This document shows positions 48,541-55,982 of a stretch of 64,000 bases of DNA, piece after piece. The notes under the pieces were generated by a model. That model was not told the DNA's origin. It was given only the letters and a program-made list of their open reading frames with translations, and did not search any database. Position numbers and translations under genes: made by a program. The stretch's first letter is position 1, and each line of letters starts with the position of its first letter. The stretch is taken from assembly GCA_002722885.1 (NCBI GenBank), contig PBNE01000015.1, forward strand, positions 30,680 through 94,679, read 5' to 3'. Source of the DNA: Rhodospirillaceae bacterium. GTDB lineage: Bacteria > Pseudomonadota > Alphaproteobacteria > SP197.

Positions 48541-50955
48541 CTACATGTGCATACGTGTTCCCTCAGGATCGAATAAAGGTTCGGTGATCACGGTCGCTTT
48601 CCGCATGTCGCCCAAAATCTCGATCTCGAACTCCGCGCCTTCGGCGATCAACTCCGTCGGGATGAACCCGATGGCGACAGACGTTTCGGCGAAATGCGCA
48701 TATCCGCCTGACGTGACGAAGCCGATCACCTCGCCATCCCTCCAGATCGGCTCATCGGCCACCACATCGGCGTCATTGGCATCGACCACAAAAGTCACGA
48801 GCTTGCGCTTGACGCCCTCGTCCTGTTCCTTCAGGGCCGCGTCGCGCCCGATGAACTCATTCTTCTTGAACGAGATGAACCGGTCCAGGCCGGTCTCGCC
48901 GGCCGTGTAGTCGGGCTTGTATTCGCGCAGCCAGGAACCGAACGACTTTTCGAGCCTCAGGCTCATCATCGCGCGCATGCCGAAGGGGCGCATGCCAAAC
49001 TCCTGGCCGGCATCAGCCAGCGTTTCGTAGAGGGCCGCCTGTTCGTGGGGCGCCACATACATCTCGTAGCCCAGATCACCGGTGTAGGTCACACGGCAGA
49101 CCAACGCGTCGGTCAGGCCGACGTTCATCCGCTGCACGGAGCGGAAGGGCATGGCTTCGTTTGAGACGTCGGAACGCGTCACCTTCTCCAGTACCTTCCG
49201 CGCATTCGGCCCGGCAAGCTGGAACCCGATCTGGTCCCTGGAGACATTGGTGACGCTCACGCCATTCTCGGGCATCAGGTCGAGCAGCAGGCGCATGTGG
49301 TAGTCCTGTGCGGCGTAACTCGCGTTGACCCGGAAGCTCTCCGGCCCCGTCTTGGCGACGGTGAAATCGCCGACCAGACGGCCCTTCTCGTTGAGCATCG
49401 GAGCGAGTGTCAGACTGCCTTCCTTCGGCATGCGCGCGGCCATGATCCGATTGAGCCAGACCTCGGCATCAGGTCCTTCGATCCGGAACTTCGAGAAGTT
49501 GTGACACTCGTTGATTCCAACGTTGGTTCGCACATTACGGCATTCCTCGCCCACGGGTCCGAATGCATTGGAACGCCGGAAACTCGGAGCCTCCCACAAC
49601 GGCTCACCTTCGGGTGCGAAGTAGTTGACGTGCTCCATGCCAAAGGCGCTGCCGAACACGGCCCGCTGATCTTTCCAGATCGGATAGGCCGGCGTCGTGT
49701 GGAACGGGCGACCTGCGGGCAGTTCCTCGTTGGGGTAGCCGATCGCAAAGCGGCGCTGGTAGTTCTCCCGCGTCTTGGCCCGTGTCAGCGCGGGCGTCAT
49801 GTAGCTTCCGAAGCGCGCCACATCCATCGCGAAGATGTCCTGGCTGAGCTCGCCCTCGATCATCCATTCGGCGAGGGCCAGCCCGACACCACCGCCCTGG
49901 CTAAAGCCCGCCATCACGGCACAACAGGCCCAAAACCCCTTCAGGCCCGGCACACGGCCGACCAGCGGATTGCCGTCACCGGCGAAGGTGAAGGGCCCGT
50001 TGATGATGGTCTTGATCCCGGCCTCGGCCAGGATCGGATAGCGGCGGAAAGCGATGTCGAGCTTATCGGAAACCCGCTCCAGTTTGTTGGGCAAAAGCTC
50101 GTGGCCGAACTCCCACGGCGTGCCATCGACCGCCCAGTGCTCGCAGTTCTGTTCGTACATGCCGATCACGAGCCCCTTGCCTTCCTGGCGCAGGTAACTC
50201 TCACCGGTCGGGTCCATGACGTGAGGCAGCTCCTTCTCACGTTCGTAGACCTCCGGAATCTCATCGGTCACGAGATACTGATGCTCCAACGGGTGGAGTG
50301 GCAGATAAACGCCGGCCATCATGCCGACCTCCCGCGCCCAAAGCCCCGCAGCGTTGACCACGTGTTCGGCTAAGATCGTTCCCTGCTCGGTCACGATCTC
50401 CCAGTGATCATCCGGCTTCTGGTTCAGTTCCAGAACCCGGTTCCGCAGATAGATCTCCGCACCGGCCATACGCGCGGCCTTGGCATAGGCATGGGTCGTG
50501 CCCGAAGGATCGAGATGACCGTCCAGCGGGTCATAAAGCGCGCCCAACAGCCCCTCGGTGTTCGTGATCGGGCTGATGTCGCGGATCTCGTCCGGCCCCA
50601 CGATCTCGGTCGAGAGCCCCATGTGCCGGTGCTTGGCCCGCTCGGCCTTCAGGAAATCCATCCGCTCCGGCGTGTCGGCAATGGTCAGACCACCGACATG
50701 GTGCAGACCGCAGGACATGCCCGTGATCTCTTCGAGTTCGCGGTAGAGCCGGATCGTGTAGCCCTGAAGCGCCACCATGTTGGGATCGGCGTTCAGCGTG
50801 TGGAATCCACCGGCCGCATGCCAGGTCGAGCCCGAGGTCAGCTCCGAGCGCTCGATCAGGCAGACATCGGTCCAGCCACCGCGCGTAAGGTGATAGAGTA
50901 CACTGCAGCCGACAACACCGCCGCCGATCACGGCCACCTTCACATGAGACTTCAT
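48541..50955 (-). CDS. Dimethylglycine/sarcosine dehydrogenase-like flavoprotein (FAD + GcvT domains)
   Basis: An 804-residue two-domain enzyme. The N-terminal 400 residues bind FAD (VAVIGGGVVGCSVLYHLTRG at 7-26); SGSTWHAAGG provides His46, the site of covalent FAD attachment in dimethylglycine dehydrogenase. The C-terminal half is a GcvT-like folate domain (MRPFGMRAMMSLRLEKSF, GETGLDRFISFKKNEFIG). It oxidatively demethylates an N-methyl amine, passing the one-carbon unit to tetrahydrofolate. The flavoprotein gene upstream ends 14 bases before its start, so both are co-transcribed. With the Rieske oxygenases this fits stepwise demethylation of a betaine-type compound. Confidence 0.9.
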   Translation of the reverse strand: MKSHVKVAVIGGGVVGCSVLYHLTRGGWTDVCLIERSELTSGSTWHAAGGFHTLNADPNMVALQGYTIRLYRELEEITGMSCGLHHVGGLTIADTPERMDFLKAERAKHRHMGLSTEIVGPDEIRDISPITNTEGLLGALYDPLDGHLDPSGTTHAYAKAARMAGAEIYLRNRVLELNQKPDDHWEIVTEQGTILAEHVVNAAGLWAREVGMMAGVYLPLHPLEHQYLVTDEIPEVYEREKELPHVMDPTGESYLRQEGKGLVIGMYEQNCEHWAVDGTPWEFGHELLPNKLERVSDKLDIAFRRYPILAEAGIKTIINGPFTFAGDGNPLVGRVPGLKGFWACCAVMAGFSQGGGVGLALAEWMIEGELSQDIFAMDVARFGSYMTPALTRAKTRENYQRRFAIGYPNEELPAGRPFHTTPAYPIWKDQRAVFGSAFGMEHVNYFAPEGEPLWEAPSFRRSNAFGPVGEECRNVRTNVGINECHNFSKFRIEGPDAEVWLNRIMAARMPKEGSLTLAPMLNEKGRLVGDFTVAKTGPESFRVNASYAAQDYHMRLLLDLMPENGVSVTNVSRDQIGFQLAGPNARKVLEKVTRSDVSNEAMPFRSVQRMNVGLTDALVCRVTYTGDLGYEMYVAPHEQAALYETLADAGQEFGMRPFGMRAMMSLRLEKSFGSWLREYKPDYTAGETGLDRFISFKKNEFIGRDAALKEQDEGVKRKLVTFVVDANDADVVADEPIWRDGEVIGFVTSGGYAHFAETSVAIGFIPTELIAEGAEFEIEILGDMRKATVITEPLFDPEGTRMHM

Positions 50956-50969
50956 CGCTATGGCCGTGC

Positions 50970-52274
50970 TCAGCCCAGCACGGAAAAGCTGGAGTTCTCG
51001 TTGATTTCCCGGTTGCGCGAGAAGAAGCCCAAATCGACATCAAGGTCGATGTTCTTCAGACGGAAGTGCACGGGATCGGCGTCATGGTCCCGGCCATTTT
51101 CGCAGGCCTCGATCAGGTCAGCCATCATCTCGCCAGCAATCGGTGCATTCTTGAACTGGTTTCCGCTGGTTCCGATCGCGAGATAGAAGCCCTTGAGATC
51201 CGATTTGTCGTAGATCGGCCCCCAGTCTTCGGTCACGTCATAAAGATCGATCGCCCCCCGTGCGCTGTTGGGAATCTTGAGATCCGGGAAGCGCTGGGCC
51301 TGACGCATAACCAGTGTCGTCCACATATGCGTGAACTCGGTCAGATACTCGTCGGGGTCGACCCATTCTTTCTGATCACAGGCCGGATCCTCACTGCCGA
51401 TCAGAATGTGATTGCCGGTCTCTGGCCGCGTATAGGCGCCGATCTCGCTGTCCGAAAAGACGTACCCGTCTTTTTCGACGTCATACCCTTCGGGTGACGG
51501 CACATGGGCAACCTCATGGCGCAGGGCCCGGGTCGTGATCCGGGTCGTTCCGGCAATACCGGCCATCTCGTTGATCTTCGACGAATGCGGACCGGCGACA
51601 TTGACCACGACGGGCGCGTCGATTTCCTCGCTGTTGTCGAGCGTCACACCGATGACACGGTCACCATCGCGACGGATCGCCACGACCGAGGTGTTAAAGT
51701 GGAAGGTTGCGCCCTTGGCTTCAGCAGCTCGCTGAACGTTGTGACCCGCAAGCTGCGGATCGGAGATGTAGCCACCACGGGGAAACAGCACAGCACCACG
51801 CACCGACCGGCCCTGGGGCTCACCGAACTGCGGATCGTCGGTCCGGCGCGGATGATCGAAGCTGTCGGTGCAGATCGGCGGCACCCGTTCCTTGACCTGT
51901 TCCGGGGACAACTCCTCATAAGGACAGCCGATCTCATCCATGACCTTCAGGATGCCTTCGAGAAAATCGTTGTGTTCGGTCTTTATCACCAGGCAGCCGC
52001 AGTTGTTGTACGTGGCCATGCCAAGCTCGTCTGTGACTCCGCAGAAATTCTCCCAGTCGGACCAGTAGAAATGACTTTCATAGGCCACGCCGGAGCCGTG
52101 GACCGTGGAGTAGTAGGGACGGATGATCGCGCAGGAGTTCGAGGTCGAGCCGTAACTGGCCGCCGGAAGCTTGTCGATCGACAGCGTCTTGAAGCCCTTG
52201 GTGGCGAGCTCACGCGCGACACTCGCGCCGATGATACCTGCGCCGATCACGATGGCGTCCCAAGTCTGGGCCAT
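50970..52274 (-). CDS. FAD-dependent oxidoreductase, sarcosine oxidase beta-like
   Basis: A 434-residue DAO-fold protein. The FAD motif AIVIGAGIIGASVARELATK begins at about residue 7; ASYGSTSNSCAIIRPYYST follows, and the C-terminal part has YLAIGTSGNQFKNAPIAGEM, the FAD-closing block of sarcosine/dimethylglycine oxidases. It lacks the folate domain of its downstream neighbour. ATG 52274 has gaagga upstream; a longer in-frame start is unsupported. It heads a two-gene minus-strand operon with the 804-residue enzyme, suggesting successive oxidative demethylations. Confidence 0.88.
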   Translation of the reverse strand: MAQTWDAIVIGAGIIGASVARELATKGFKTLSIDKLPAASYGSTSNSCAIIRPYYSTVHGSGVAYESHFYWSDWENFCGVTDELGMATYNNCGCLVIKTEHNDFLEGILKVMDEIGCPYEELSPEQVKERVPPICTDSFDHPRRTDDPQFGEPQGRSVRGAVLFPRGGYISDPQLAGHNVQRAAEAKGATFHFNTSVVAIRRDGDRVIGVTLDNSEEIDAPVVVNVAGPHSSKINEMAGIAGTTRITTRALRHEVAHVPSPEGYDVEKDGYVFSDSEIGAYTRPETGNHILIGSEDPACDQKEWVDPDEYLTEFTHMWTTLVMRQAQRFPDLKIPNSARGAIDLYDVTEDWGPIYDKSDLKGFYLAIGTSGNQFKNAPIAGEMMADLIEACENGRDHDADPVHFRLKNIDLDVDLGFFSRNREINENSSFSVLG

Positions 52275-52340
52275 GGTCGTCCTTCTCCCCAATAAGTGCT
52301 TCGCGCATCTAAGCGCGATTCGGGGAAATGTCACGACCCC

Positions 52341-52373
52341 CAAAAATAAAAACGGCGACCCGAGGGCCGCCGT
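52341..52373 (-). terminator. Intrinsic terminator after the four-repeat secreted protein gene
   Basis: Arms 52352-52361 and 52364-52373 form a 10-pair stem with one mismatch; on the minus strand it is followed by tttttattttt-type sequence (plus-strand 52342-52350 is A-rich). It lies 35 bases after the stop at 52408. Confidence 0.85.
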
Positions 52374-52407
52374 CAAGTTGGGGAGGACAAAGGTAAGAAA
52401 AAAGGGA

Positions 52408-53664
52408 TCAGCGCATCCAGATGTCACCGGCGATCCAGGCGCGGTGACAATCAGTTGCGTCATGGTACATGTCCTGGTTCAGCAGGGGCGTTGTGGTCAT
52501 GCCCGGCCCCGCAAAGCGCGGATCGTCGCATTCATAATCGAAGGCCCACTGGCTGCGGTCATCGCCGAAATCGATGGTGGCAGTGACGATTTCATCATAG
52601 GCATCGGTGTTGCGGGCGACGCCGGTCTTGCTGCTGTCTGTACCCAGTGAGATTCCGCTCGAAGCCTGGGACGACGCCTGCGGCAGTTCCGGCGTTTCCG
52701 TCAGAATCTGCGCCTGCGTCTGGCCCTCGGCCTGCGAGGTGTTCGGCTGTCCGCCGTCGGCCAGCCAGAGGTTGCCGGCCATGTAGGCATCCAGGCAGTC
52801 ACTGGCATCATGATAGGTGTCCTGCGCCAGCAAAACTGTTTCGGTCATGCCCGGGCCGGCGAAACGCGGATCGTCGCACTCGCCATCGTTCGACCATTGG
52901 CTGGCATCGTCACCGAACTCGATCCCGTGCATAACAGCCGCCATCAGTTCAGGCTCGTCTGTCACGATCACGACGGGCTCTTCAACGACGATCTCTGTCG
53001 CATGGGCCGTCACGACGTCATCGAGCGGCGCGAGCTCGACCAGTCTGTCGAGATAGAGGCTGCTGCAATCGGCAGCATCGCGATAGAGGTCTTCACGGAC
53101 CGGGGTCGCATGCACCATGCCCGGGCCTTCGAAACGCGGATCATCACATTCGCCATCATAGGACCACAGGCTCGAGTTGTCGCCGAATTGGATGCCCCAA
53201 CGCACCAGCGGTTCACTCTGTGCCAGGGAAATCTGCTCCCCCTCAAGCAACAGGCGGCAATCGGTCGCATCGTGATAGGCGTCGACTGCCAGCAAGCCGG
53301 ACATCGCCATGCCCGCACCGACGAACCGGGGATCATCGCACTGGCCATCCAGCGCCCAGATACTCGTATCGTCACCCAAGTCGATGGCGAGATCGGCAGT
53401 CGGAGCGGCATCCTCGACGATCACCGGGTCCAGTGAGGCGATTTCCGCCTCCGCTTCTGGCTCGATGTCTGTCTTAGCTTCGATCGAGCCGGTGTCATCG
53501 GTGCGTTTGCGCACTCCGCCCCGCACACCAGATTCATCGTCCACGAGTGCCAGCGTGAAACCAGCGTCGGGTGCGCTGCGACTCTGGACGAAGTCCGCCA
53601 GGGACGGCGTGGTCAGAGCCACCGCAGCACCCAGAAATGTTCCAATGACAAGTGTCGAATTCAT
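52408..53664 (-). CDS. Secreted protein with four C-x26-C repeats (ECDDPRF repeat family)
   Basis: A 418-residue protein with a signal peptide (cleavage likely after Ala23 in TPSLADF) and aaggga upstream of ATG 53664. It holds four copies of a 50-55-residue unit at about 94-147, 157-212, 247-302 and 363-418. Each copy reads I-x-F-G-D-D-x-S-x-W-x-x-D-x-E-C-D-D-P-R-F-x-G-P-G-M and closes with Y-H/R-D-A-x-D-C. The eight cysteines (109/136, 173/200, 263/290, 379/406) are the only ones in the protein, and every pair is exactly 27 residues apart, implying one disulfide per unit. Linkers are acidic and low-complexity. I do not recognise a functional family; the Asp-rich loops could bind calcium. A two-unit lipoprotein paralogue lies immediately upstream. 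Confidence 0.85.
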   Translation of the reverse strand: MNSTLVIGTFLGAAVALTTPSLADFVQSRSAPDAGFTLALVDDESGVRGGVRKRTDDTGSIEAKTDIEPEAEAEIASLDPVIVEDAAPTADLAIDLGDDTSIWALDGQCDDPRFVGAGMAMSGLLAVDAYHDATDCRLLLEGEQISLAQSEPLVRWGIQFGDNSSLWSYDGECDDPRFEGPGMVHATPVREDLYRDAADCSSLYLDRLVELAPLDDVVTAHATEIVVEEPVVIVTDEPELMAAVMHGIEFGDDASQWSNDGECDDPRFAGPGMTETVLLAQDTYHDASDCLDAYMAGNLWLADGGQPNTSQAEGQTQAQILTETPELPQASSQASSGISLGTDSSKTGVARNTDAYDEIVTATIDFGDDRSQWAFDYECDDPRFAGPGMTTTPLLNQDMYHDATDCHRAWIAGDIWMR

Positions 53665-53683
53665 GATCGTTCTCCCTTGAAGA

Positions 53684-53700
53684 ACCGGCCTTTTGCCGGA
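53684..53700 (-). repeat. Short hairpin between the two repeat-protein genes
   Basis: ccggc (53685-53689) and gccgg (53695-53699) form a 5-pair stem with a 5-base loop in the 56-base gap between the paralogues. With little T-run after it on the minus strand, it is at best a weak terminator or processing site. Confidence 0.35.
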
Positions 53701-53720
53701 GCTCCTTCATCCGTTCAGGA

Positions 53721-54200
53721 TCAGCGCAGTGCGATGCGGCCCGCTTCGTGCTGGCGGCGGCAATCGGTGGCGTCGCGATAACGGTCTTCATCCAACAGCG
53801 GCGTCGTGGTCATGCCGGGACCGTAGAAGCGCGGATCGTCACACTCGCCATCGTAGGACCAGGCGCTGCTGTCGTCTCCGAAATTGATCGACGAGGCGTA
53901 GCTGTCGTAACCGCTGTTGTAATTCTGGCTTGAAGCGAGCCAGACCTGGCCCACGTTGAAGGCCGAACGGCAATCGGTCGCATCGCGATAGGCGTTGGCG
54001 CTGCTCAGGCCGGCCGTTGCCATGCCGGGACCACTGAAGCGTGGGTCATCGCACTCATAGTCATAGGCCCACTGACTGGAATCGTCGCCGAAGTTGATGT
54101 TGCTTTGGCCGTAACCGTTGCCGGTCGCGGCGTAACAGGCCTGAAGGCCGATGCTCAGGGCAGCCACGGCTGCAATCTTTGTGAAGGTCCTGAAGGTCAT
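53721..54200 (-). CDS. Lipoprotein with two C-x26-C repeats (ECDDPRF repeat family)
   Basis: A 159-residue paralogue of the neighbouring four-repeat protein. The N-terminus AAVAALSIGLQAC is a lipoprotein signal with Cys22 as the likely lipidation site. Two units follow (about 34-90 and 104-159): NFGDDSSQWAYDYECDDPRF and NFGDDSSAWSYDGECDDPRF, each closing with YRDATDC. Cysteine pairs 50/77 and 120/147 again have spacing 27. ATG 54200 has gggag upstream and was preferred over the in-frame ATG at 54227 because it starts the signal peptide. The gene precedes the four-repeat gene on the same strand with a 56-base gap, so both are likely co-expressed: one membrane-anchored, one released. Confidence 0.85.
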   Translation of the reverse strand: MTFRTFTKIAAVAALSIGLQACYAATGNGYGQSNINFGDDSSQWAYDYECDDPRFSGPGMATAGLSSANAYRDATDCRSAFNVGQVWLASSQNYNSGYDSYASSINFGDDSSAWSYDGECDDPRFYGPGMTTTPLLDEDRYRDATDCRRQHEAGRIALR

Positions 54201-54297
54201 GGCGCTCTCTCCCGTGTTCGCCGTCATGACCCCTTCACGCAGGTGCTGTCCGAAACCTTATGCTGATTGTGGCAAAAACCCGGCCCCGTAACCGTGA

Positions 54298-54605
54298 TCA
54301 CGCATCGCCGGACACGCTAACGGGCAGGGTCACCGTCACGGTCGTGCCGCTCCCGACCTCACTTTGGTTGCCCAATGTACCGCCAAGTTTCTCGGCAAAA
54401 CTGCGGGCCGGCGGCGAACCGTTCCAGGGCGAGCGTCAGGTTCGGGGCGATCAGGAGATGCCGCTCTTCCACCTCAGAGACCTCGCGTTCGAACGCGGTC
54501 GTCTGCACCCAGGCACCCAGGCACCCAGGCACCCAGGATGAGAACAGGTGCGCTGGCCACGGCCATGAACAGCGCCATTAAAATGGTGCGAAGACCGAGC
54601 TTCAC
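54298..54605 (-). pseudogene. Sensor histidine kinase remnant (first helix plus last ATPase strand)
   Basis: GTG 54605 (gagggg upstream) starts KLGLRTILMALFMAVASAP, a membrane helix, then LILGAW, and in the adjusted frame TTAFEREVSEVEERHLLIA, typical of the start of periplasmic-sensing kinases. After NLTLALERFAAG the sequence jumps to SFAEKLGGTLGNQSEVGSGT and TVTVTLPVSVSGDA, the C-terminal end of a HATPase domain, with stop at 54298. Histidine box, N, G1 and G2 motifs are all gone. Within the first part lies an 8-base tandem repeat (see separate entry) whose copy number puts the downstream sequence out of frame. Clearly non-functional. Confidence 0.75.
54506..54537. repeat. Tandem repeat, four copies of the 8-mer cacccagg
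   Basis: Four perfect head-to-tail copies of cacccagg (54506-54513, 54514-54521, 54522-54529, 54530-54537). Being 8 bases long, each gain or loss shifts reading frame by two or one. It lies in the part of the kinase remnant encoding the end of its first membrane helix; two or five copies would join the flanking coding segments in frame, four do not. Confidence 0.95.
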
Positions 54606-54794
54606 CAGATGTTTCCCCTCAACTGACCAGATCCCGCCCGACCTGTGTCATCACGACGCGTTGAACCGGTTGCAATCGCGCGCCCCAAACGGAAATGATA
54701 CACCGCAAGCGGCACGAAGCGGAACAGGCCTTGGTCTACACACGCTGCGTGCCAAATTACCGAAACGCCTCAGATTGTAAAAGGACACTTACAA

Positions 54795-55982
54795 ATGACT
54801 GTTCGCCATGGCCGCGAGTTCCTCAGCATTCCGGGTCCCACAAACGTCCCCGACCGTGTCCTCTCGGCCATGCACCGCCCCGCCATCGATATCTATGCAG
54901 GTGAGATGGTCGACACGACCCTGAGCTGTCTGGCCGATTTGAAGCCGGTGTTCCGTACATCCGGCGAAACCTACATCTATGCCGCCAACGGCCACGGTGC
55001 CTGGGAAGCCTCTCTCACCAACTGCCTGTCGCGCGGCGAGAAGGTGCTGGTCCTTGAATGCGGCGTCTTCGCAGTGGTCTGGGGTGAGATGGCCTCGTTC
55101 ATCGGGCTCGAACCCGAGATCATGCCGTCTCGACCGCGCCGCGCCGTGGATCCCGCGGCGCTGGAGGAACGCCTGCGTGCCGACACCGACGGTGAGATCA
55201 AGGCCGTCATGACGGTTCAAATTGATACAGCATCTGGGGTGGTCAACGACATTCCGGCCCTGCGTCGTGCAATCGACAACGCCGGCCACGACGCACTGCT
55301 CCTGGTCGACACCATCGCCTCGCTTGGCTGCATGACCTTCGAGATGGATAAATGGGGTGTCGATGTCACGGTTGCGGGCTCACAAAAGGGCCTGATGGCA
55401 CCGCCCGGCCTGAGCTTCGTCGCAGCCAACGACAAGGCGCGCGAACGGCACAAATCGGCCGATCTCGTAACGCGCTACTGGGACTGGACCCTGCGCGAAG
55501 GCCCCGAGCACTACATGAAGCACTGCGGCACCGCGCCCGAGCACATGCTGTTCGGTCTGCGGGAATCCCTCGACATGATCGCGGAGGAAGGGCTCGACAA
55601 CGCCATTCGCCGACACACGCTGCTTGCCGATGCCACCCGGGTGGCGGTCGGCGGCTGGGCGGAAGGCGGCGCAATGGAGTTCAACATCACCGAAGCCACC
55701 GAACGCTCAAACTCCGTCACCACGGTGCGCATGGAGCCCGAACCCGCCGCCGCCATTCTCGACTTCTGCCGTGAGCAATGCGGAGTTGTGGTCGGCATTG
55801 CCATTGGCGAGAACCTCGGCGGCAAGGGCTTCCGCATCGCCCATATGGGCCACACCAACGCACCGATGGTCATGGGCACGCTGGGCGCCATCGAAACAGC
55901 ACTCATCGCGCTCGACCTGCCCCATGGCTCCGGCGGCCTCCAGTCTGCTACCGCGTGTCTGGGTGCGGCGCTCAAGGTTTGA
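54795..55982 (+). CDS. Class V PLP aminotransferase (serine/alanine-glyoxylate aminotransferase-like)
   Basis: A 395-residue enzyme. SIPGPTNVPDRVLSAMHRPA near the N-terminus, ANGHGAWEASLTNCLSRG, DTIASLGCMTFEMDKWGVD and the PLP lysine Lys198 in AGSQKGLMAPPGLSFV identify the AGXT/serine-glyoxylate family. It probably transfers an amino group to glyoxylate; the donor could be serine, alanine or aspartate (as in the beta-hydroxyaspartate cycle). The ribosome binding site aaagga precedes the ATG by 9 bases. A small NTF2-like gene follows after 11 bases, suggesting an operon. Confidence 0.9.
   Translation: MTVRHGREFLSIPGPTNVPDRVLSAMHRPAIDIYAGEMVDTTLSCLADLKPVFRTSGETYIYAANGHGAWEASLTNCLSRGEKVLVLECGVFAVVWGEMASFIGLEPEIMPSRPRRAVDPAALEERLRADTDGEIKAVMTVQIDTASGVVNDIPALRRAIDNAGHDALLLVDTIASLGCMTFEMDKWGVDVTVAGSQKGLMAPPGLSFVAANDKARERHKSADLVTRYWDWTLREGPEHYMKHCGTAPEHMLFGLRESLDMIAEEGLDNAIRRHTLLADATRVAVGGWAEGGAMEFNITEATERSNSVTTVRMEPEPAAAILDFCREQCGVVVGIAIGENLGGKGFRIAHMGHTNAPMVMGTLGAIETALIALDLPHGSGGLQSATACLGAALKV

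Follow-up and report, generated by a model that had tools for sequence, protein, structure and literature searches.

The LDL-receptor class A repeat (LDLa, PF00057) binds Ca2+ and has six cysteines. In the Lin12-Notch repeat (LNR, PF00066), we take the aspartates of the closing D-x-x-D-C motif to be calcium ligands. The LNR modules of PAPP-A have two disulfides or one, with LNR1 paired 1-3/2-4, each is reported to bind Ca2+, and the modules contribute to the binding of substrates and inhibitors (PMC9579167). Those of Notch are described as guarding a proteolytic site (PMC3415683).

Here we compare with these modules a small two-cysteine unit found in two adjacent genes of a Rhodospirillaceae bacterium. 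We conclude that the unit represents a genuine domain family that is conserved and exported. Judged by searches of Pfam, NCBIfam, PHROGs, the PDB and the literature, the family appears to be undescribed.

Six copies of one unit in two adjacent genes

The window, by which we mean the whole 64,000-nucleotide stretch of DNA that was analysed, had been proposed from its sequence to encode six copies of the unit in two neighbouring genes, one product being lipid-anchored and the other free. Both open reading frames and their two plus four units were confirmed, and the anchoring was borne out by the lipobox LQAC of the upstream gene product (P0002) and the signal peptide of the downstream one (P0001). 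The features are as follows.

53721..54200, minus strand: lipoprotein gene P0002, 159 aa from the ATG at 54200, two units, lipobox LQAC followed by Tyr
53937..54098, minus strand: P0002 unit 1, C59/C86 (168-aa numbering)
53727..53888, minus strand: P0002 unit 2, C129/C156 (168-aa numbering)
52408..53664, minus strand: gene of the signal-peptide protein P0001, 418 aa, four units
53224..53385, minus strand: P0001 unit 1, C109/C136
53032..53193, minus strand: P0001 unit 2, C173/C200, position-specific group with support of 100/100 in the unit tree
52762..52923, minus strand: P0001 unit 3, C263/C290
52414..52575, minus strand: P0001 unit 4, C379/C406
52351..52374, minus strand: intrinsic-terminator-like hairpin, 10 pairs with a T-rich tail, just 3' of P0001

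The P0002 frame is also open to an ATG at 54227, which would give 168 aa, but the ATG at 54200 is the likelier, better-placed start, with GGGAGA read just upstream of it. A purine-rich, Shine-Dalgarno-like stretch can be read before the ATG of both genes, which share the minus strand with 56 bases between them. P0001 and P0002 are probably made together, and the hairpin is likely to mark the end of a two-gene transcript; terminator-like sites in 52200-54800 numbered 3 against 1.6 expected by shuffling, a count that is weak when taken alone. P0001 is strongly acidic, with 80 Asp or Glu against 20 Lys or Arg.

The window units are about 55 residues long, with pairwise identities of 44-67%. In all six, the two cysteines are offset by exactly 27 residues, as had been noted, and the eight cysteine positions of mature P0001 all fall within unit pairs, with no others. 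When the residues of each mature chain were shuffled 20,000 times, four 27-offset pairs were reached 0 times for P0001 and two such pairs 93 times for P0002. The exact spacing stands for the window but fails as a family rule, as offsets of 26, 27 or 29 were found in 42 units of close relatives, and 265 related units gave 26 in 164, 27 in 95, 28 in 5 and 20 in one, a four-cysteine unit of locus L055. The FGDDxS opening also proved less than universal, reading LGDD in unit 1 of P0001 and FGDN in unit 2.

In the sequence searched of the organism's own genome, units were found at P0001 and P0002 only. The unit genes are under purifying selection: P0002 has orthologues in three genomes of the same genus with dN/dS well below 1, and a simple count across eight orthologue pairs gave about 0.11-0.26, although several of these pairs are close to saturation at synonymous sites. 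A tree built from 22 units of four genomes shows a tendency to cluster by position and not by genome; its support is modest, as stars mark 3 of the 19 inner branches, and P0001 unit 1 sits on a long branch.

AlphaFold2 modelled residues 40-168 of P0002 from a 105-row alignment with a mean pLDDT of 87.4, the linker falling below 50. For residues 91-418 of P0001 (22 rows) the mean was 74.7 and the pTM 0.33; most unit blocks scored 73-95, against 36-58 for most of the two long linkers. By secondary structure, the same predicted core recurs in all six units: short pieces of strand come first, then a helical turn of three residues and a helix of nine whose start always lies within D-A-x-D-C, and a last strand closes the unit. 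An extra hairpin is predicted before this core in P0001 units 2 and 3 and is absent from units 1 and 4. As far as secondary structure shows, a lack of any common fold, which the original prediction had named as refuting, did not occur, and the models support one module repeated six times around a common predicted core.

Searches for a known family

We found no match to P0001 or P0002 up to an E-value of 10 among Pfam and NCBIfam models (hmmscan for Pfam), and PHROGs gave nothing below 0.13 for the window proteins. The inability of the original prediction to name a family was borne out in these three collections, and a match to a characterised domain, which it had named beforehand as counting against it, did not appear. 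A sequence search of the PDB with P0002 returned nothing significant (best E 0.21), and one with the unit profile, in which P0001 is represented through its units, returned nothing up to E 10. Foldseek comparison of the AlphaFold2 models of both proteins with the PDB also gave no match, which is weak evidence for units this small, and the best hit in a viral structure library had an E-value of 6.5. Literature searches for ECDDPRF and DGECDE found no papers, and further searches showed nothing on this domain among the results listed, judged by titles and the starts of abstracts. With no significant match in Pfam, NCBIfam, PHROGs or the PDB, assignment to a known domain was rejected. Among the 90 unit open reading frames (ORFs) sampled from relatives, weak matches to PF17810 (in 6), PF24158 (in 3), PF23623 (in 2), PF13550 and PF09297 (one each) are presumed to be compositional or in the wrong frame.

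Naming the family would aid annotation of secreted proteins of unidentified function.

Distribution among bacteria

Genomes were counted as positive at E <= 0.001, and the organism's own genome is part of the count wherever the set contained it. A search with P0002 was positive for 9 of 41 relatives. The two-cysteine unit profile found 8 of 16 genomes of the organism's own family, and these eight belong to its own genus, which is represented by 10 genomes. It also found 12 of the 149 genomes searched from a second family of the class and 10 of 289 in a set from the class, some of these last being four-cysteine forms (described below). A profile of the four-cysteine form was positive in 12 of 398 genomes of the phylum, all but one from the class. 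Contigs of named genomes gave 312 candidate stretches, 259 of which encode a relative, and the 79 loci studied below represent the best 80 kept of those 259, a choice that biases them toward close relatives; ORF calling in them was crude. By title, the best-80 loci are nearly all from Alphaproteobacteria (Yoonia, Loktanella, Devosia, Erythrobacter, Henriciella and others), leaving two Gammaproteobacteria bins (L082 and L086) and one locus placed only in Pseudomonadota (L069). The unit family is patchy in Alphaproteobacteria, and it is absent from most sampled genomes and therefore not essential to the group.

A phage or plasmid origin was considered and rejected. No relative turned up in two scans of viral contigs, and none in plasmid searches that used P0002 or an eight-unit relative as the query.

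Conserved columns, export and cysteine pairing

The 265 related units were taken from the 79 loci by a regular expression that demanded the cysteines, Asp at C1+1 and C1+2, Asp or Asn at C1-3, Arg, Asp, Ser or Thr at C1+4, Phe or Tyr at C1+5 and Asp at C2-4, and these required columns are partly conserved by construction. Asp occupies C1-3, C1+1, C1+2, C2-4 and C2-1 in 97-100% of the units, most of these columns being demanded by the pattern; it is present in 265 of 265 both at C2-4, where it was demanded, and at C2-1, where Ala would also have been accepted. Columns that the pattern left free and that are nearly constant all the same are Gly at C1-12 (264 of 265), at C1+7 (100% after rounding), at C1+9 (94%) and at C2+7 (96%), Glu at C1-1 (96%), Ala at C2-3 (97%) and an aromatic residue at C1-6 (Trp, Tyr and Phe in 85, 10 and 5%).

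A simple scan of 91 unit ORFs, from the two-cysteine-type loci and the window, found a signal-like hydrophobic N-terminus in 83 and none in the remaining 8, in agreement with the predicted secretion. The lipobox pattern missed the lipoboxes of L033 and L053, which are present by eye, and flagged doubtful ones in L029, L052 and L075. Counted from approximate mature starts, cysteines outside the unit pairs are absent from 63 of the 91 ORFs and number exactly two in 19, so that the idea that cysteines come in pairs held well beyond the window; there is one such cysteine in 8 ORFs, and 22 in a frame of L055 that holds a four-cysteine protein. Where an extra pair falls in the third unit, its cysteines are at C1-18 and C2+4 in 13 of 13 proteins, as if stapling both ends of one unit. 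From these patterns we infer one disulfide per unit, joining the loop cysteine to the helix cysteine.

A four-cysteine sister form

We also found an unnamed form of the unit with four cysteines, for example in L107-L109, L121, L127, L142 and the second protein of L055, a locus where the two-cysteine and four-cysteine forms stand side by side. It is likewise repeated and shares the signature W-A-x-D-G-E-C-D-[DE] ... G-T-D-x-x-D-C with the two-cysteine unit, and in L107-L109 and L142 it is fused to trypsin-like proteases. It differs in having two more cysteines, about 5-8 fewer residues between the shared cysteines and a length of about 35 residues against 57 as sampled; it lacks the F-G opening and C-terminal portion of the two-cysteine unit. 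A profile of the four-cysteine form, built on an alignment of 23 units, matches all six window units (E 4.9e-6 to 2.6e-4), and hhalign scored it at 60 (E 1.9e-14) against the two-cysteine profile, where the best of 100 column shuffles reached 17.5; judged by these profile comparisons, the two forms are clearly homologous. The extra cysteines align with C1-8 and C1+11, the latter by the hhalign alignment, and among the 265 units a cysteine at either position is found in just one, the four-cysteine unit, which has both. Because these two cysteines come and go together, a 1-3/2-4 pairing of the disulfides is suggested for the sister form.

These observations bear on whether the cysteine pair might be a redox switch and not a structural disulfide. 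The presence of exactly one pair in each two-cysteine unit would suit a switch, but the pair contains no CXXC, its members are mostly 26-27 residues apart, and the sister form adds a second pair in a manner that fits structural bonds. We consider a redox switch hardly credible.

Genome G162 has 12 matches on five contigs (L108, L116, L121, L125 and L127) to proteins of the four-cysteine form, one of which carries trypsin and another Sel1 and PG_binding_1, indicating a local expansion. In L153 (genome G436, from another class of the same phylum), four-cysteine-like units with shorter spacing end a Sel1-repeat protein; this was the sole match of the four-cysteine profile outside the class among the 398 phylum genomes, and by eye its spacing is the most LNR-like.

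Architectures and a possible docking role

Strings of units and nothing more make up most of the 90 ORFs sampled, with 1 to 16 copies per protein. Pfam identified caspase domains in 3 of them and PPC domains in 5, and L082, L086 and L090 are fusions with both. Trypsin-like domains are joined to units in L106 and L019; in L019, MORN and PG_binding_1 are also present and the units are C-terminal. Four-cysteine units occur with Sel1 in L116 and L153. Protease fusions place the units at either end. Naming the family would give these caspase-like and trypsin-like proteases an accessory domain that is invisible to architecture surveys based on Pfam.

The longest string counted, a 1099-residue open frame at L092:1735-5031, has 16 units and a two-unit gene alongside. 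Four Henriciella loci (L057, L070, L072 and L078) have three unit-like motifs each, with about 290-480 residues between the first and the second; in L072 and L057 this gap is an extremely acidic repeat rich in Ala, Glu, Asp and Val.

Export and modularity of the units are well supported. The explanation that we rank first, at a little short of an even chance, is a docking module that is locked by a disulfide, works outside the cytoplasm and probably binds Ca2+, which we favour because of the invariant aspartates, the export, the pairing and the fusions. Counting against it are LNR scores within the shuffle range, the lack of a Foldseek match, clade-specific neighbours, the patchy distribution and the extra hairpin of P0001 units 2 and 3. 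Each unit of about 55 residues would fold independently and work outside the cytoplasm, running from an I-x-F-G-D-D strand region through a W-x-x-D-G-E-C-D-D-P-R-F-x-G-x-G loop and the nine-residue helix to the closing strand. The putative loop-helix disulfide would bring together two groups of nearly invariant aspartates, which probably hold one Ca2+, as in the Lin12-Notch repeat. Strung on linkers, the units may serve as beads that dock or anchor a ligand or substrate; in the window, a lipoprotein tethered to the membrane would carry two such beads and a free protein four. Metal binding, a docking ligand and a location on the outer surface are inferred. The acidic metal site of the original prediction is plausible, and the two window proteins may be physical partners, on the outer surface or in the periplasm. 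A docking role would explain the same module on secreted caspase-like and trypsin-like proteases; most sampled members have no enzyme, so protease docking cannot be the general role.

The units may instead be plain structural spacers or beads of an envelope matrix, with a disulfide for stability and acidic residues for solubility, having no specific metal or ligand, the window pair being a tether and its filler. In favour of such spacers are the variation in copy number from 1 to 16, the long linkers predicted to be disordered and the rarity of other Pfam domains among the 90 ORFs. However, the conservation of the free columns (Gly at C1-12, C1+7, C1+9 and C2+7, the aromatic at C1-6 and Glu at C1-1), at 94-100%, seemingly goes beyond the needs of stability, position-specific unit identities tend to persist between genomes, and the same module is found on several enzyme types. 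We regard plain spacers as unlikely, while granting them a real share of the probability.

Fusion to trypsin-like and caspase-like proteases at either end is also what would be seen if the units regulated proteases, blocking or steering the fused active site while free strings act on unlinked proteases in the same compartment. The role in substrate and inhibitor binding described for PAPP-A LNRs (PMC9579167) points the same way. Against such regulation, enzyme fusions are a small minority, no protease is present among the three window neighbours scanned, and a prolyl-oligopeptidase cluster gene (one member scanned) adjoins 6 of the 79 loci, all of one clade. We judge it improbable.

Paired genes and neighbourhoods

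The survey of gene neighbourhoods that the original prediction had proposed showed two adjacent unit genes in 10 of the 79 related loci. In 7 of these 10, out of the 79 in all (by eye, L022, L053, L031, L033, L038, L067 and L081), a gene with a lipobox is accompanied by one with an ordinary-looking signal, and the pairing of a tethered with a free protein is therefore recurrent and not a one-off. L022 and L053 are from the organism's own genus, and L081 is like the window in having a two-unit lipoprotein and a four-unit protein.

A conserved partner gene was ruled out, as neighbour clusters are clade-specific across the 79 loci; ten neighbours that were scanned are mostly metabolic, transport, helicase, integrase or kinase genes. 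In the Yoonia/Loktanella group and its kin (L024, L029, L061 and 23 others), the unit gene lies between accA-like and HpcH/HpaI-type cluster genes. The accA-like cluster occurs in 30 of the 79 loci, the HpcH/HpaI-type cluster in 28 and both in 26, with the Pfam names coming from L024 only and the accA-like-cluster member of L047 being longer and possibly different. The window neighbours at 48544-52274 (minus strand) and 54795-55979 (plus strand) encode two FAD-dependent oxidoreductases, one with GCV_T, and a class-V aminotransferase, which belong to ordinary metabolism and show no evident connection with the unit pair.

Upstream of P0002 and outside the module, the window has one further feature.

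54322..54647, minus strand: sensor kinase gene remnant in three pieces and three frames, most of the middle missing

The pieces match residues 15-56, 51-87 and 582-614 of the L022 kinase, and longer kinase genes, with HAMP, HisKA and HATPase_c domains and a weak Cache match, lie upstream of the lipoprotein gene in the same-genus loci L022, L023 and L053. This order of genes in the three relatives would suit a pair that forms the extracytoplasmic arm of a two-component system and signals to the kinase. Such a role is very unlikely, however, given that the window kinase gene is wrecked while the unit pair is intact, and that the neighbours in other clades (accA-like, HpcH/HpaI, hrpB-like and integrase-family genes) are unrelated.

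Comparison with LNR and LDLa repeats

The enteropeptidase tail C-E-D-G-S-D-E-A-D-C, which we take to be LDLa, aligns with the four-cysteine profile at E 0.54-2.1, but the unit forms have two or four cysteines where LDLa has six. An LDLa assignment was rejected, there being no Pfam match and only this 13-residue tail match, which is not significant. Other weak matches of the four-cysteine profile, to an envelope protein (0.14) and Smad4 (0.3), are short chance stretches.

Membership of the LNR family was likewise rejected. An hmmscan gave no PF00066 match for P0001 and P0002 up to E 10 or for ten related proteins up to E 1, and a search of six genomes with this model left the units unmatched and returned nothing above the cut-off. 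The hhalign scores against six Notch LNRs (13.4 for the two-cysteine and 13.2 for the four-cysteine profile) were within the shuffle range, since 5 and 8 of 100 column shuffles, respectively, scored at least as high.

The likeness to LNR lies in the motifs, with D-G-x-C-D and then D-x-x-D-C in several Notch LNRs, and the closing D-x-x-D-C is common to six aligned Notch LNRs and the 265 units. With regard to disulfides, there are three in the LNRs of Notch and two or one in those of PAPP-A, compared with one cysteine pair here and two in the sister form. The two-cysteine unit differs from LNR in being longer, in its predicted nine-residue helix and in forming strings of up to 16. On a reading that we hold to be rather doubtful, the two-cysteine and four-cysteine modules would either form a bacterial branch of the calcium module of Notch and PAPP-A or have reinvented it independently, as a minimal docking bead with one disulfide and one calcium that is associated with proteases. 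Their strings would be the bacterial counterpart of LNR arrays, and extracellular calcium would control whether they are folded. If the unit is such a calcium module, it would offer a minimal system for the trade-off between disulfides and calcium in LNR-like folds.
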